In this document: piece by piece, positions 44,658 through 48,628 of the stretch
Layout of the letters: each line of letters starts with the position of its first letter
Position numbering within the stretch: position 1 is the first letter of the stretch
Source of the DNA: Bacteroidales bacterium 6E
GTDB taxonomy: Bacteria > Bacteroidota > Bacteroidia > Bacteroidales > Prolixibacteraceae
Assembly: GCA_001270045.2 (NCBI GenBank)
Contig: DF970689.1
Coordinates: 324,205-388,204, forward strand
Reading direction: 5' to 3'
DNA length: 64,000 bases
The notes under the pieces: generated by a model
The model's database searches: none
Told to the model about the DNA's origin: nothing
Seen by the model: only the letters and a program-made list of their open reading frames with translations
Position numbers and translations under genes: made by a program

Positions 44658-45159
44658 AGCGGAGACTTCCCTGGAAGAGGAAAAGATGCTGAGGGAATAT
44701 TTCAACCAGGGCGAGGTAGACCCGGAGCTGCTTCCCTACCGCGAGTTCTTTGCAGATACGGAAAGTCAGTTCAAAACCAAAGGGGAAGACCAGATTGAAG
44801 AAAAGGTGATGGACCATATCCTGGAAAACGAAAGCAAAAACAGGGGTCGTTACCGACAACTTTGGCTGACAGTATCAGGAATTGCCGCCTCCCTGGTCAT
44901 AGCGGTTTCCTCCATGCTTTACTACCAGAGCCAGCAAGGCTATCAGGACACGTTCACGAATCCGGATGAAGCCTATGCATATGCTGAACAGACCCTCGCT
45001 TTTGTATCCCAGAAATACAACCAGGGACTGGCAAGCCTTGAACCCCTGAAGAAAGTGAACCAGTCGGTGCAACCTCTTGAAAACGGGCTACAGACATTGA
45101 ACAAAGGTTTAAACCAGATACCCTCAAATCTTATAAAAGGGAATGATTCACAGGAATAA
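44614..45159 (+). CDS. Probable anti-sigma-like single-pass membrane protein
   Basis: This protein (181 aa from the preferred start MKANIAKTLLQ) begins with a helical cytoplasmic part (KFFEAETSLEEEKMLREYFNQG), has one membrane segment (LWLTVSGIAASLVIAVSSML) and a periplasmic tail. The cytoplasmic part resembles the sigma-binding end of FecR-like anti-sigma factors and other short Bacteroidota anti-sigma proteins, but no ZAS zinc motif is visible. It overlaps the sigma gene by 44 bp, so the pair is translationally linked. The frame is also open from 44590. The function is inferred from position and topology. Confidence 0.65.
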   Translation: MKANIAKTLLQKFFEAETSLEEEKMLREYFNQGEVDPELLPYREFFADTESQFKTKGEDQIEEKVMDHILENESKNRGRYRQLWLTVSGIAASLVIAVSSMLYYQSQQGYQDTFTNPDEAYAYAEQTLAFVSQKYNQGLASLEPLKKVNQSVQPLENGLQTLNKGLNQIPSNLIKGNDSQE

Positions 45160-45210
45160 AGTTTACAGGAAAGAATAATATACAAGAAATAATCTCTAAA
45201 AAATAGCAAA

Positions 45211-45717
45211 ATGAAACGATTGATTTTAATGATTGCAATGCTGGCACCCATGGTATTGGCCGCACAGAAAAGCCCGGTCGACAAGCTGTTCGACAAATAT
45301 GCCAACCAGGATGGCTTTACCACCGTCAACATTTCCGGAAAACTTCTGGGAATGGCCGGAAAGATGGACAAAAGCAATCCCGACACGAATGATATGCTGA
45401 ACAAGCTATCAGGAATCCGGATCCTGTCGGTCGATGACGAGTCCTTAAATTCAAAACTCGATTTCTACAAGGAACTCGAAAACGACGGATTCTTCAGGAA
45501 CAACACCTATGAAGTACTGATGGAGGTGACCGAAAAGAACGAGGTGGTCCGTTTCTACGGACGTACCACACCTGAAGGTAAGTATGGAGAACTGCTGCTT
45601 GTCGTCGGAGGGAAAAGCAATGCCCTGATCAGCATCAGGGGAATCATCGATCCTGATAACATCGGAAAAATCATGGATGGTTTGGATGTGGATGTCGATG
45701 TAAGTAAAAAACCATAA
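45211..45717 (+). CDS. Exported DUF4252 protein
   Basis: This 168-residue protein has a signal peptide (MKRLILMIAMLAPMVLA, cut before AQKS). The mature part shows the DUF4252 pattern: VDKLFDKYANQDGFTTVNIS, then FYKELENDGF, MEVTEKNEVVRFYGR and LLLVVGGKSNALISIRG. DUF4252 proteins are common in Bacteroidota, often next to ECF sigma/anti-sigma pairs as here, and their role is unknown. It is followed by a terminator. The gene may be controlled by the sigma factor encoded just upstream. Confidence 0.85.
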   Translation: MKRLILMIAMLAPMVLAAQKSPVDKLFDKYANQDGFTTVNISGKLLGMAGKMDKSNPDTNDMLNKLSGIRILSVDDESLNSKLDFYKELENDGFFRNNTYEVLMEVTEKNEVVRFYGRTTPEGKYGELLLVVGGKSNALISIRGIIDPDNIGKIMDGLDVDVDVSKKP

Positions 45718-45731
45718 ATGCATCAACTGGC

Positions 45732-45769
45732 AAAAAGGCTGTATCAATAACGATGCAGCTTTTTTTTTT
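45732..45769 (+). terminator. Intrinsic terminator of the sigma/DUF4252 operon
   Basis: The stem AGGCTGTATC with GATGCAGCTT (two wobbles, AATAAC loop) is followed by about ten T. It ends the ECF operon 15 bp past the last stop codon. Confidence 0.8.
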
Positions 45770-45827
45770 GCACAGGCACATCAACAATATCAATAAATAC
45801 CAATATCTATTATCACAATGGTTTCCT

Positions 45828-45985
45828 ACCCCTTTTGACCATTAAAATACCATTGCCATAGCAATGACATTCTTTTGCCATATGCAAAAGAAAAAATAAT
45901 GGAAAACATATGCAGAAGATATGGAAAAACCCAAAAGGGGTGCAAGTCCTGACCAAACCTGACAAGGTAATTCTGCAAGCAGAAT
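45828..45985 (+). ncRNA. Candidate structured RNA or multi-stem element
   Basis: Several perfectly complementary stems are packed together. P1 is ACCCCTTTTG (45828-45837) with CAAAAGGGGT (45932-45941). P2 is CCATTA (45839-45844) with TAATGG (45897-45902). P3 is CATTGC-CATA-GCAATG (45851-45866). P4 is CTTTTGC-CATAT-GCAAAAG (45872-45890). P5 is CATAT-GCAGAAG-ATATG (45907-45923). P6 is ATTCTGC-AA-GCAGAAT (45970-45985), followed by a T-run. P1 encloses P2 and P5, and P2 encloses P3 and P4. Strand is inferred from the T-run. It could be a small RNA, a leader, or a DNA-level element. No known family was recognised. Confidence 0.4.
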
Positions 45986-46133
45986 CAAATCATTTTTTCA
46001 GGTTAAGGATAGCCGGAAATATTTTGGTAATCTCTTTATAATTTTCCGACGATTGTCATTCTCAAGGGTGCAACGCAATTTTAACATCACGAATCAGGAA
46101 GGGCCGAATAAGAAAATTTCCAATGATTTTCCT

Positions 46134-46142
46134 TACTTTTGG
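46134..46142 (+). promoter_or_regulatory. Promoter-like TACTTTTGG upstream of pheT
   Basis: TACTTTTGG matches TAnnTTTG and ends 32 nt before the pheT ATG at 46175. The in-frame ATG at 46139 overlaps this element, supporting the downstream start. Confidence 0.55.
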
Positions 46143-46174
46143 GCCGTTTATCAGAATCGGAAAAACATACCATA

Positions 46175-48628
46175 ATGAAAGTCTCATATAACTGGCTCAA
46201 GAGCTACATCCAATTTGACCACACCCCGTCGCAATTATGTGAACTTCTTACCAGCATTGGCCTGGAAGTTGGCGGATCCGAAGAGGTTGAAAGCATACGT
46301 GGCGGATTGAAGGGCCTGGTGATCGGCAAGGTCGTAACTTGCGTACCCCATCCCAACAGCGATCATTTAAGCATTACCACGGTTGACACCGGAAGTGGTG
46401 AAATCCTTCCCATTGTTTGCGGGGCTCCCAATGTACGGGCCGGACAAAAAGTGGTGGTAGCAACGGTAGGCACTACCCTTTACGATGGTGACCAGACTTT
46501 TGAGATCAAAAAGGCCAAAATCCGTGGTGAGGTTTCAGAAGGAATGATTTGCTCGGAGACCGAAATTGGCGTTGGTTCCGATTCCTCTGGCATTATGGTA
46601 TTGCCCGAAGAGAGTGTCATTGGGACTGCCGCCTCCGATTATTTCAAGGTGGAGTCTGATTGGGTTATAGAGGTTGACATCACCCCAAACCGGATTGATG
46701 GGGCTTCCCACATAGGTGTTGCGCGCGATATCGCCGCCGCTCTAAGGCAAACAGGTGAGAACGGTTACAAGAGACCCTCCGTTGAAAGCTTCAAGGTTGA
46801 CAACCATCAGCTCGACATCAACGTTGAGGTGCTGAACCCCGAGGCTTGTCCCCGCTATTCCGGAGTTTCCATTTCCGGGGTTGAAGTCGGAGAATCACCT
46901 GCATGGCTGCAAAACAGGCTCAAGGCCATTGGACTTACGCCCATCAACAACATCGTCGACATTACCAATTTTGTATTGTTTGAAACTGGTCAGCCTTTAC
47001 ATGCATTCGATGCCGACGAAATCACGGGAGGCAAGGTGATCGTCAGGACGCTGATGCCAGGAACACGTTTCAAGACCCTCGATGGTGCAGAAAGAAAACT
47101 GGACGAGAAAGACCTGATGATTTGCAATTCAAACGAGGGAATGTGTATTGCCGGCGTTTTCGGAGGGATTGACTCCGGAATCAATACGACCACCCAAAAC
47201 GTGTTTCTGGAAAGTGCTTGCTTTGATCCGGTATATATCCGCAAAACCTCACGCAGGCATGGCTTGTTTACCGATGCTTCTTTCAGGTTTGAACGCGGCA
47301 CCGATATCAATGCCACCATATATGCCCTGAAAAGGGCTGCAATCCTGATAAAGGAGATTGCAGGGGGCACCATTTCTTCCGAAATTAAGGATTATTATCC
47401 CCAACCGGTGCAGGGATACCCGGTTGAGGTATCCTATCATAACATCAACCGACTCATTGGCAAGACCATTCCTAAGGAAACCCTGAAAGAGATTCTGGTT
47501 TCCCTGGAAATGGAAATCGTGTCGGAAACCGATCGCGGACTTTCCCTGATGGTCCCAACCTATCGGGTGGATGTGCACCGCGAATGCGACGTAATCGAGG
47601 AAATACTCAGGATTTATGGATACAACAATGTTGAAATCCCGACCCATGTTTCCGCTTCCTTAAACTATGCCGAGAATCCCGATCCCAACAAAGTCAAAAA
47701 CGTGATTGCAGATTACCTGGCTGCACAGGGTTTTAATGAAATGTGGTCCAACTCGCTGACAAAGGCATCCTACTATGAAAACATGAAGGATTATCCTGCC
47801 GAGAAGACCGTCAAATTATTTAATCCTTTGAGCAGCGACCTGGGCAGCATGCGTCAAACTTTGCTGTATGGCGGACTGGAGTGCATTCAGCTCAACAGCA
47901 ACAGGAAAAACGAAGACCTCAGGCTGTTTGAATTCGGGAACTGTTACTTCTTTAAGGGAACCCATTACAAGGAAGATTCCGCCGCCAACTATTTTGAGGA
48001 GGAACACCTTGGCCTTTTTATCACCGGCAACCGGGAAAGCCAAAACTGGCTTACTCCGGAAACCACCACTTCGTTCTTCCTTATGAAATCCTATGTCGAG
48101 AATATATTGACCCGTCTTGGATTTACCCTGGAACAACTGAAAGTGAATGAATCGGGCAATGAGATTTTCTCGGAAGGATTGTCATACGAAACGGCCAATA
48201 AGCAAAAACTGGTTGAATTCGGGATTGTATCACCCAAATGGGCAAAATCCTTTGACCTGGAAAATGCCGTCTATTATGCCGACTTTGACTGGGGACAAAT
48301 CCTTTGGGAAAGTAAAAAGAACAAGGTGAAATTCACGGAACTGCCCAAGTATCCCGAAGTCAGAAGGGATTTGGCCCTGGTGCTCGACAAGGAAGTAAAA
48401 TTCTCGTCGATCAAAAATATTGCATTTGCGAGTGAAAGACAATTGCTGCAGTCAGTCAGTTTGTTTGATGTGTATGAAGGGAAAGGTGTTCCTGAAGGAA
48501 AAAAATCCTACGCCATCAGCTTTATCCTGCGTGACGACAACAGGACCCTGAACGACAAACAGATCGACAAGGCGATGGAACGTATACTTATCGCTTGCGA
48601 AAAGCAGGCCGGTGCGAAACTTCGCTGA
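46175..48628 (+). CDS. pheT: Phenylalanine-tRNA ligase beta subunit
   Basis: PheT pairs with PheS to charge tRNA-Phe and edits mis-charged tyrosine. The preferred start MKVSYNWLKSYI is the family standard (817 aa). Domains in order are the tRNA-binding EMAP-like OB fold (residues about 40-150, VIGKVVTCVPHPNSDHLSI), the B3/B4 editing domain (LQNRLKAIGLTPINNIVDITN near 250), B5 (about 410-480), the catalytic-like core, and the C-terminal ferredoxin anticodon-binding domain (KYPEVRRDLALVLD to AGAKLR). pheS is not in this window. Confidence 0.97.
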   Translation: MKVSYNWLKSYIQFDHTPSQLCELLTSIGLEVGGSEEVESIRGGLKGLVIGKVVTCVPHPNSDHLSITTVDTGSGEILPIVCGAPNVRAGQKVVVATVGTTLYDGDQTFEIKKAKIRGEVSEGMICSETEIGVGSDSSGIMVLPEESVIGTAASDYFKVESDWVIEVDITPNRIDGASHIGVARDIAAALRQTGENGYKRPSVESFKVDNHQLDINVEVLNPEACPRYSGVSISGVEVGESPAWLQNRLKAIGLTPINNIVDITNFVLFETGQPLHAFDADEITGGKVIVRTLMPGTRFKTLDGAERKLDEKDLMICNSNEGMCIAGVFGGIDSGINTTTQNVFLESACFDPVYIRKTSRRHGLFTDASFRFERGTDINATIYALKRAAILIKEIAGGTISSEIKDYYPQPVQGYPVEVSYHNINRLIGKTIPKETLKEILVSLEMEIVSETDRGLSLMVPTYRVDVHRECDVIEEILRIYGYNNVEIPTHVSASLNYAENPDPNKVKNVIADYLAAQGFNEMWSNSLTKASYYENMKDYPAEKTVKLFNPLSSDLGSMRQTLLYGGLECIQLNSNRKNEDLRLFEFGNCYFFKGTHYKEDSAANYFEEEHLGLFITGNRESQNWLTPETTTSFFLMKSYVENILTRLGFTLEQLKVNESGNEIFSEGLSYETANKQKLVEFGIVSPKWAKSFDLENAVYYADFDWGQILWESKKNKVKFTELPKYPEVRRDLALVLDKEVKFSSIKNIAFASERQLLQSVSLFDVYEGKGVPEGKKSYAISFILRDDNRTLNDKQIDKAMERILIACEKQAGAKLR

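Follow-up and report, generated by a model that had tools for sequence, protein, structure and literature searches.

Does the group of short complementary stems upstream of pheT in Bacteroidales bacterium 6E encode a structured RNA, or is it a feature of the DNA itself? The window, a stretch of 64,000 nucleotides of contig DF970689.1, carries the group at 45828-45985. An earlier note on this DNA had described six nested stems there, considered the nesting more than chance in a region free of protein genes, and proposed a new structured RNA, with a DNA-level element as the alternative. All six stems and their nesting were found at the positions described (Table 1), and the list of open reading frames holds none of 60 aa or longer inside 45828-45985. 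When 45800-46010 was folded and compared with shuffled controls, as had been proposed, the + strand reached -53.4 kcal/mol (z -4.47) with none of 200 shuffles as good, indicating that the stretch is more than a chance assembly of dyads; the - strand gave z -2.19, with 2 of 200 shuffles as good.

Table 1. Stems and arms of the element in the window, with neighbouring features.
Feature	Position	Strand	Basis or remark
Upstream neighbour gene, DUF4252 protein	45211..45717	+	PF14060, E 2.2e-24; context, outside the element
Terminator-like hairpin and T-run of the upstream gene	45735..45770	+	Seen by eye; absent from the consensus-scan output
Whole interspersed element, conserved span	45794..46001	+	Consensus of 57 rows in common orientation; edges approximate
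Left arm: ATGGCAAAAGA, ATGTCATTGCT, ATGGCAATGGT, ATTTTAATGGT, CAAAAGGGGTA, GGAAACCATTG, TGATAATAGAT	45805..45884	-	11-nt modules, row L027
Palindromic core, dyad between 45884 and 45885	45818..45954	+	Axis of complementarity; modules
Stem P1, ACCCCTTTTG / CAAAAGGGGT	45828-45837 / 45932-45941		Located in the sequence
Stem P2, CCATTA / TAATGG	45839-45844 / 45897-45902
Stem P3, CATTGC / GCAATG	45851-45856 / 45861-45866
Stem P4, CTTTTGC / GCAAAAG	45872-45878 / 45884-45890
Right arm: AAGAAAAAATA, ATGGAAAACAT, ATGCAGAAGAT, ATGGAAAAACC, CAAAAGGGGTG, CAAGTCCTGAC, CAAACCTGACA	45885..45964	+	11-nt modules, row L027
Stem P5, CATAT / ATATG	45907-45911 / 45919-45923
Right flank, holding hairpin P6	45965..46001	+	Consensus; ends near TTTCAG, as do several other copies
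Stem P6, ATTCTGC / GCAGAAT	45970-45976 / 45979-45985		T-run directly after
Downstream neighbour pheT	46175..48628	+	Context, outside the element

Transcription signals were sought by a consensus scan of 45100-46300, which returned three terminator-like sites (1.0 in shuffles), one of them at P3 on the + strand, and five promoter-like sites (3.2 in shuffles), none of which falls on the + strand within the element. No Rfam family reached its gathering score anywhere in the window, and a known RNA family was dropped as a candidate; the region itself gave only weak Rfam matches, the best at E 0.076. Phage or plasmid cargo was likewise set aside, the window copy having no match at E 1e-5.

By its PheT, the source genome is nearest, among named records, to Prolixibacteraceae MAGs. 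A DNA search of this genome (G000; 4.44 Mb in 25 contigs) revealed dispersed copies of the stretch, and the idea of a unique small RNA was dropped once these appeared. Two search models were used: R1, a sequence-only model of 12 copies, and R2, built from 48 copies of G000 and its sister genome G004 (66% complete). With 150 candidates scored, R2 recovered at least 41 distinct intergenic places in G000 at E<=1e-3, many of which had contributed copies to the model. Its match at G000:C24:370010-370176 corresponds to 45806-45972 of the window. Of four weak matches outside the 41 that were read by eye, two look genuine (C10:40389 and C5:172319). The copy table contains 57 rows, 36 from the 41 places in G000 and 21 from G004, and their consensus in common orientation shows a conserved span of about 200 bp. 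Hairpin P6 and its T-run are missing from this consensus, read by eye, and look specific to the window copy.

For the R2 alignment, five truncated, masked, duplicate or doubtful rows and four low-scoring rows were removed. Gaps were needed in only one of the 48 remaining rows (L144); because rows were cut to a fixed length (window equivalent 45796-45974), this statement rests on the alignment and not on row length. The copies are nevertheless far diverged, with a median all-pair core identity of 51% vs 27% for shuffled rows (56 rows).

The stems P1-P5 proved to be the visible portion of a longer palindrome that is made of 11-nt modules and recurs genome-wide. In 54 rows, the best complementarity axis common to the copies is the one on which core positions sum to 135 (complementarity 0.56), followed by the two axes displaced from it by 11 nt in each direction (0.43 and 0.41). 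From the dyad outward, each arm consists of four ATGGNAAAANN or ATGCAGAANAT modules, then a CAATAAGGGGT-like module, a CAAGACCTGGT-like module and one more, and the consensus modules partly differ between the left and right arms. Scanning the window for inverted 11-nt arrays gave the element a score of 1.07 and the next place 0.85. Autocorrelation peaked at lag 11 in all seven groups of loci (0.43-0.63), with a second peak at lag 22; the groups contained from 1 to some 50 loci each, and G475 was represented by one locus. The element thus has the layout of an iteron array: each of its two arms is a tandem row of repeats spaced by roughly one helical turn. A coding repeat was not favoured, by reasoning, because an 11-nt period breaks the reading frame. 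In copy L024, the second module of the right arm has the left-arm consensus form ATGGTGTTTGT, as though the sequence of one arm had replaced that of the other.

The neighbours of the copies were surveyed by viewing the first residues of the nearest ORFs for the 57 rows, and a few ORFs were run against Pfam. A pheT leader is not favoured because the copies adjoin many unrelated genes. A role at 3' ends of genes was also rejected: the left neighbour faces the element in 25 of 34 scorable G000 copies, but in 12 of 34 in G016. By eye, the genes beside copies L158, L159 and L048 encode one type of protein. The first two copies are nearly identical; the gene by L158 has a weak DUF6266 match (E 4e-4, under the cut-off), and the gene by L048 has no Pfam match. 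The stretch belongs, as a single copy, to an interspersed family of intergenic DNA elements in which two inverted 11-bp arrays surround a dyad.

Whether this palindrome is kept as RNA or as DNA was addressed by the pattern of changes between its arms. RNAalifold assigned 0 consensus pairs on 48 copies, so that no consensus fold was obtained. Cells across the dyad were paired in 63.2% of cases vs 56.6% in shuffled data (0/500), and the covariation score at the dyad was 0.224 vs 0.143 shuffled and no higher than 0.102 for slides of 1-3 columns; pairs changed on both sides were not raised (46 vs 44.7 in shuffles). In 49 rows of G000 and G004, the Watson-Crick excess at the dyad reached Z 11.9, with 6.1 and 4.9 at 11-nt slides and -1.1 to 1.7 at other small slides; it was Z 8.1 in a subset of 32 ATGG copies and 5.4 in the remaining 17. 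In the 49 rows, G.T cells (Z -3.8) and A.C cells (Z -2.9) were both under expectation. In the ATGG subset, the G.T value (Z -2.4) was no more extreme than that of an off-axis control (-3.2), and what can safely be stated is an absence of wobble enrichment.

An RNA whose fold is maintained should accept wobble pairs on the strand that is transcribed. Since the covariation is Watson-Crick only and neither strand is enriched in wobble, the best reading of the palindrome is a DNA-level one, in which selection on the duplex or copying from arm to arm maintains it in its own genus. In the relative G016, arm-to-arm covariation was not detected in 33 copies on a fixed axis (1228 vs 1228.1 Watson-Crick cells); these are 33 of 38 loci, after removal of two that nearly duplicate L234 and three whose centre differs. 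An apparent signal there (1462 Watson-Crick cells vs 1088) was an effect of choosing the axis for each copy and was gone on the fixed axis. On the compensatory changes that the earlier note had asked for, the observations were mixed: covariation at the dyad was seen in G000 and G004, but wobble was not enriched and G016 showed no covariation.

A multi-copy structured small RNA transcribed from the + strand of 45794-46001 would account for the better fold of that strand, the raised pairing and covariation at the dyad, the terminator-like site at P3 and the intergenic position. We nevertheless consider it very improbable, given the lack of consensus pairs and of an Rfam match, wobble at no more than expectation, two-sided changes at the level of shuffles, G016 copies without covariation, and a P6 and T-run that lie outside the consensus. 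The evidence thus does not uphold the structured RNA that headlined the earlier note; the dispersed palindrome with its Watson-Crick-only covariation favours the DNA-level element that the note had offered as an alternative, and we infer that the element works as DNA. Single copies of such elements can pass for structured RNAs.

The distribution of the element was then considered beyond its own genus. R1 passed E 1e-5 in 2 of 41 genomes (the own genome and 40 relatives). R2 passed 1e-3 in at least 15 of 140 family genomes and at least 34 of 393 order genomes, with 19 and 6 candidates scored per genome, respectively; 27 of the 34 order genomes have one match, possibly a chance one. One set of twelve loci that was read showed an array in six and none in five (L276, L278, L279, L182 and L184), while the portion read of the twelfth, L178, missed the match. 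Loci read by eye carry inverted 11-bp arrays of ATGGACAAACC units in variable number in G016 and G109, and inverted 11-bp arrays were also seen in G108, G138 and G153. With other units, they occur in G394, G302, G475, G426 and probably G496, where the reading was again by eye. Several further lineages of the order share the architecture while using different unit sequences. Outward inverted repeats were seen by eye around the arrays of G394 and G302.

An array scan of a 400-kb sample of G016 recovered the known copies together with a previously missed copy at ~3581 kb. Alongside the ATGGACAAACC class, G016 also holds a second class of arrays with GGGTAAACGAA / AGTTACCCTTC-like units (L231 ~11620, L219 ~1705). 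In G002 and G006, which belong to the same genus as the source genome (~173 kb each), nothing scored above 0.91, and an earlier version of the scan, run over 80 pheT loci (819 kb), had no clear array in its top 25 places. Many G000-type copies escape the scan (their median score is 1.03, and the lowest 5% score zero), and array absence is for that reason weak evidence. Conservation in G016 ends ~100 bp each side of the element centre. The copies lie in ORF gaps of median 1.0 kb vs a background of 125 bp (34 loci with an ORF of at least 100 aa on both sides), some gaps being overstated by uncounted tRNA and rRNA genes. An Rfam search of six of the 38 G016 loci placed three of them near rRNA operons. 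These three (L234, L267 and L270) are near-identical element copies by three rRNA operons, with a group II intron match close to one of them.

The positions of the copies along the chromosome were compared with uniform placement, in tests made post hoc after the pattern had been noticed. G016 is one contig of 4.465 Mb, and its sites, at least 39, are the union of two pattern searches and one place from the array scan. For 38 sites, the mean gap was 117.5 kb with a coefficient of variation (CV) of 0.445 vs 0.963 under uniform placement (0/100,000). When the missed copy was included, 39 sites gave CV 0.432 vs 0.96 (0/100,000 placements), and without the three copies near rRNA operons the value was 0.437 (0/20,000). 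The shortest gap was 24 kb, and no site gap was seen near the likely terminus, as placed by coarse GC skew. In G000, the 31 within-contig gaps on ten contigs gave CV 0.55 vs 0.90 (P 4e-4), with a shortest gap of 30 kb (0/20,000 placements). G394 showed no regular spacing (14 sites, CV 0.82, P 0.32), in a test that counted a 1-kb pair once and left out a copy on contig C5, the genome being given 6% contamination. Among the sites listed for G109, one gap is ~17 kb. The known copies are thus spaced more evenly than chance in two genera, unlike in the third (G394). The 1-kb pair of G394 consists of two copies exactly 1,000 bp apart (C1:4792782 and 4793782), as if by a 1-kb tandem duplication.

Sites also turn over between close relatives. 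Flanks are shared with one of 36 compared G000 copies by 13 of the 21 G004 copies (9 on both sides, 4 on one), and the other 8 have no counterpart among those 36, two of them having little or no flank on one side. In ten G000/G004 pairs, core identity was 48-79% and that of the main flanking blocks 74-89%; in 4 of the 10, the G000 copy had its G004 partner as its closest relative. At L053 the upstream gene and pheT stand as in G000 with the element absent, and in G001 the metK gene pair is present without it; both empty loci are too diverged to fix element borders or a target-site duplication. A gene neighbourhood shared across genera was rejected, as only 3 blastp pairs exceeded 40% identity between G016 and G000/G004 loci; these involve two G016 proteins, one of which resembles seryl-tRNA synthetase by eye.

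The main rival to a host function is a miniature non-autonomous transposable element, resembling a MITE, whose arms would serve as transposase-binding ends and derive from a transposon that is lost or has gone unseen. Target immunity is known from Mu and Tn7, and the even spacing might arise from such immunity rather than from a host function. This reading would suit the relatives' loci that lack the element, the turnover of site positions, the intergenic and patchy occurrence over genera, and the outward inverted repeats that flank the G394 and G302 arrays, although the ends of the window copy are undefined; the shortest gaps in G016 and G000 would also fit an exclusion range. It has more difficulty with copies that are far diverged and yet nearly free of indels, unlike decaying insertions, and with G016, whose spacing a 24-kb exclusion by itself would, by our estimate, not make so even. 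The short gap in G109 and the copies 1 kb apart in G394 also speak against it, a target-site duplication was not definable at the diverged empty loci, and no transposase was tied to the element in a search for the Y1 family. We regard it as possible but on balance unlikely.

REP palindromes depend on a transposase family, Y1. One Y1 transposase gene was found in G000, set among its own, different CCCCGTAGGGGT repeats; the genus members G001, G003 and G005 have one to six Y1 genes each and no element match, and G004 (66% complete) showed no Y1 gene. A RAYT as mobiliser was therefore rejected, the Y1 gene not being flanked by element repeats and the three genus members with Y1 genes giving no element match. 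The Y1 (RAYT-like) gene of G000, within C10:32000-44000 (L328), lies in dense CCCCGTAGGGGTGACA repeats, a separate REP-like family, and a weak 11-nt element is located ~4 kb from it.

A functionless origin was also weighed, in which the arms would be kept alike by mutation alone, through template switching from one arm to the other and 11-nt slippage. The right arm of L024, with its module of left-arm form, the Watson-Crick-only covariation and the variable unit number in G016 and G109 would all be consistent with it, but it leaves unexplained the dispersal to some 40 places, the even spacing and the nearly indel-free G000/G004 alignment, and as a full account it appears improbable.

Interspersed palindromes are common, and a literature search found no description of such inverted 11-bp arrays. 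ERIC is an imperfect palindrome. ERIC and RU-1, RU-2 and RU-3 of enterobacteria are described as repeats of 103-168 bp at many intergenic places, likened to MITEs (PMC2759123). The present element resembles them in being a short repeat at many intergenic places, and differs in arms made of 11-nt modules in fixed register and in copies that are far diverged almost without indels and evenly spaced in two genera. REPs are given as 20-40 bp repeats tagged GTAG or CGTC, with RAYT transposases (PMC3733652); interspersed palindromes between genes are common to both, whereas the Y1 transposase of G000 has its own, separate repeats. BrickBuilt of Porphyromonas gingivalis is a MITE with a minisatellite in 19 copies, with 23-nt direct repeats between IS-like terminal inverted repeats (PMC4596501). 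It too belongs to the Bacteroidota and has dispersed copies holding short tandem repeats, but inverted 11-nt arrays are not known to be reported for it.

Among protein-binding sites, the element shares with the ParR/parC system two groups of one-turn repeats, to which protein binds cooperatively in parC. This plasmid centromere has 11-bp iterons, usually at one site per plasmid beside par genes; here, some 40 chromosomal sites with inverted arms are found instead, and no par genes were recognised beside the copies, of whose neighbours few were identified. The sites of Noc, SlmA and MatP number tens per chromosome and are single short motifs with regional bias. Tens of sites over one chromosome are likewise seen here, in the form of ~200-bp arrays and with no gap near the likely G016 terminus.

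For the DNA-level reading preferred here, we see an even chance that the element is an iteron array for a putative binding protein, possibly one that organises the chromosome. Because the repeats lie about one helical turn apart, equal contacts would fall on about the same face of the helix. Cooperative loading of a putative sequence-specific protein along each arm could then build a single nucleoprotein complex on the dyad. The sites, with mean gaps of ~75-118 kb, might serve chromosome organisation or segregation, which is a guess. Co-evolution with a binding protein would be expected to give units that differ between lineages and are mostly alike within one, which is the pattern seen. A docking-site function is opposed by the turnover of sites, the loci of relatives that lack the element, the irregular spacing in G394, the short gap in G109 and the patchy distribution, and also by unit sequences that can differ strongly within one genome (the second class in G016; two types in G475), which puts a single-protein reading under strain.

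The broader proposal is speculative, and rather unlikely in its full form: some of the Bacteroidota would possess a chromosome-wide system of about 40 dyad-symmetric arrays of 11-bp iterons at even distances, whose co-evolving protein organises, anchors or segregates the chromosome, with lineages changing iterons and moving sites while keeping the architecture. What is unusual is to find three traits together: a strict inverted 11-bp layout that persists while its sequence changes, wholesale replacement of the units between lineages, and even spacing along a chromosome. If one protein binds the sites, they would constitute a chromosome-organising site system in these bacteria; if they are the remains of a transposon, target immunity would have left a natural record in their spacing.

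In G475, L274 and L293 are two long, nearly perfect palindromes. Their units are ACTGGACAACA and TATTGTACAAT, and both palindromes share outer CGGTCGTTG / CAACGACCG flanks.
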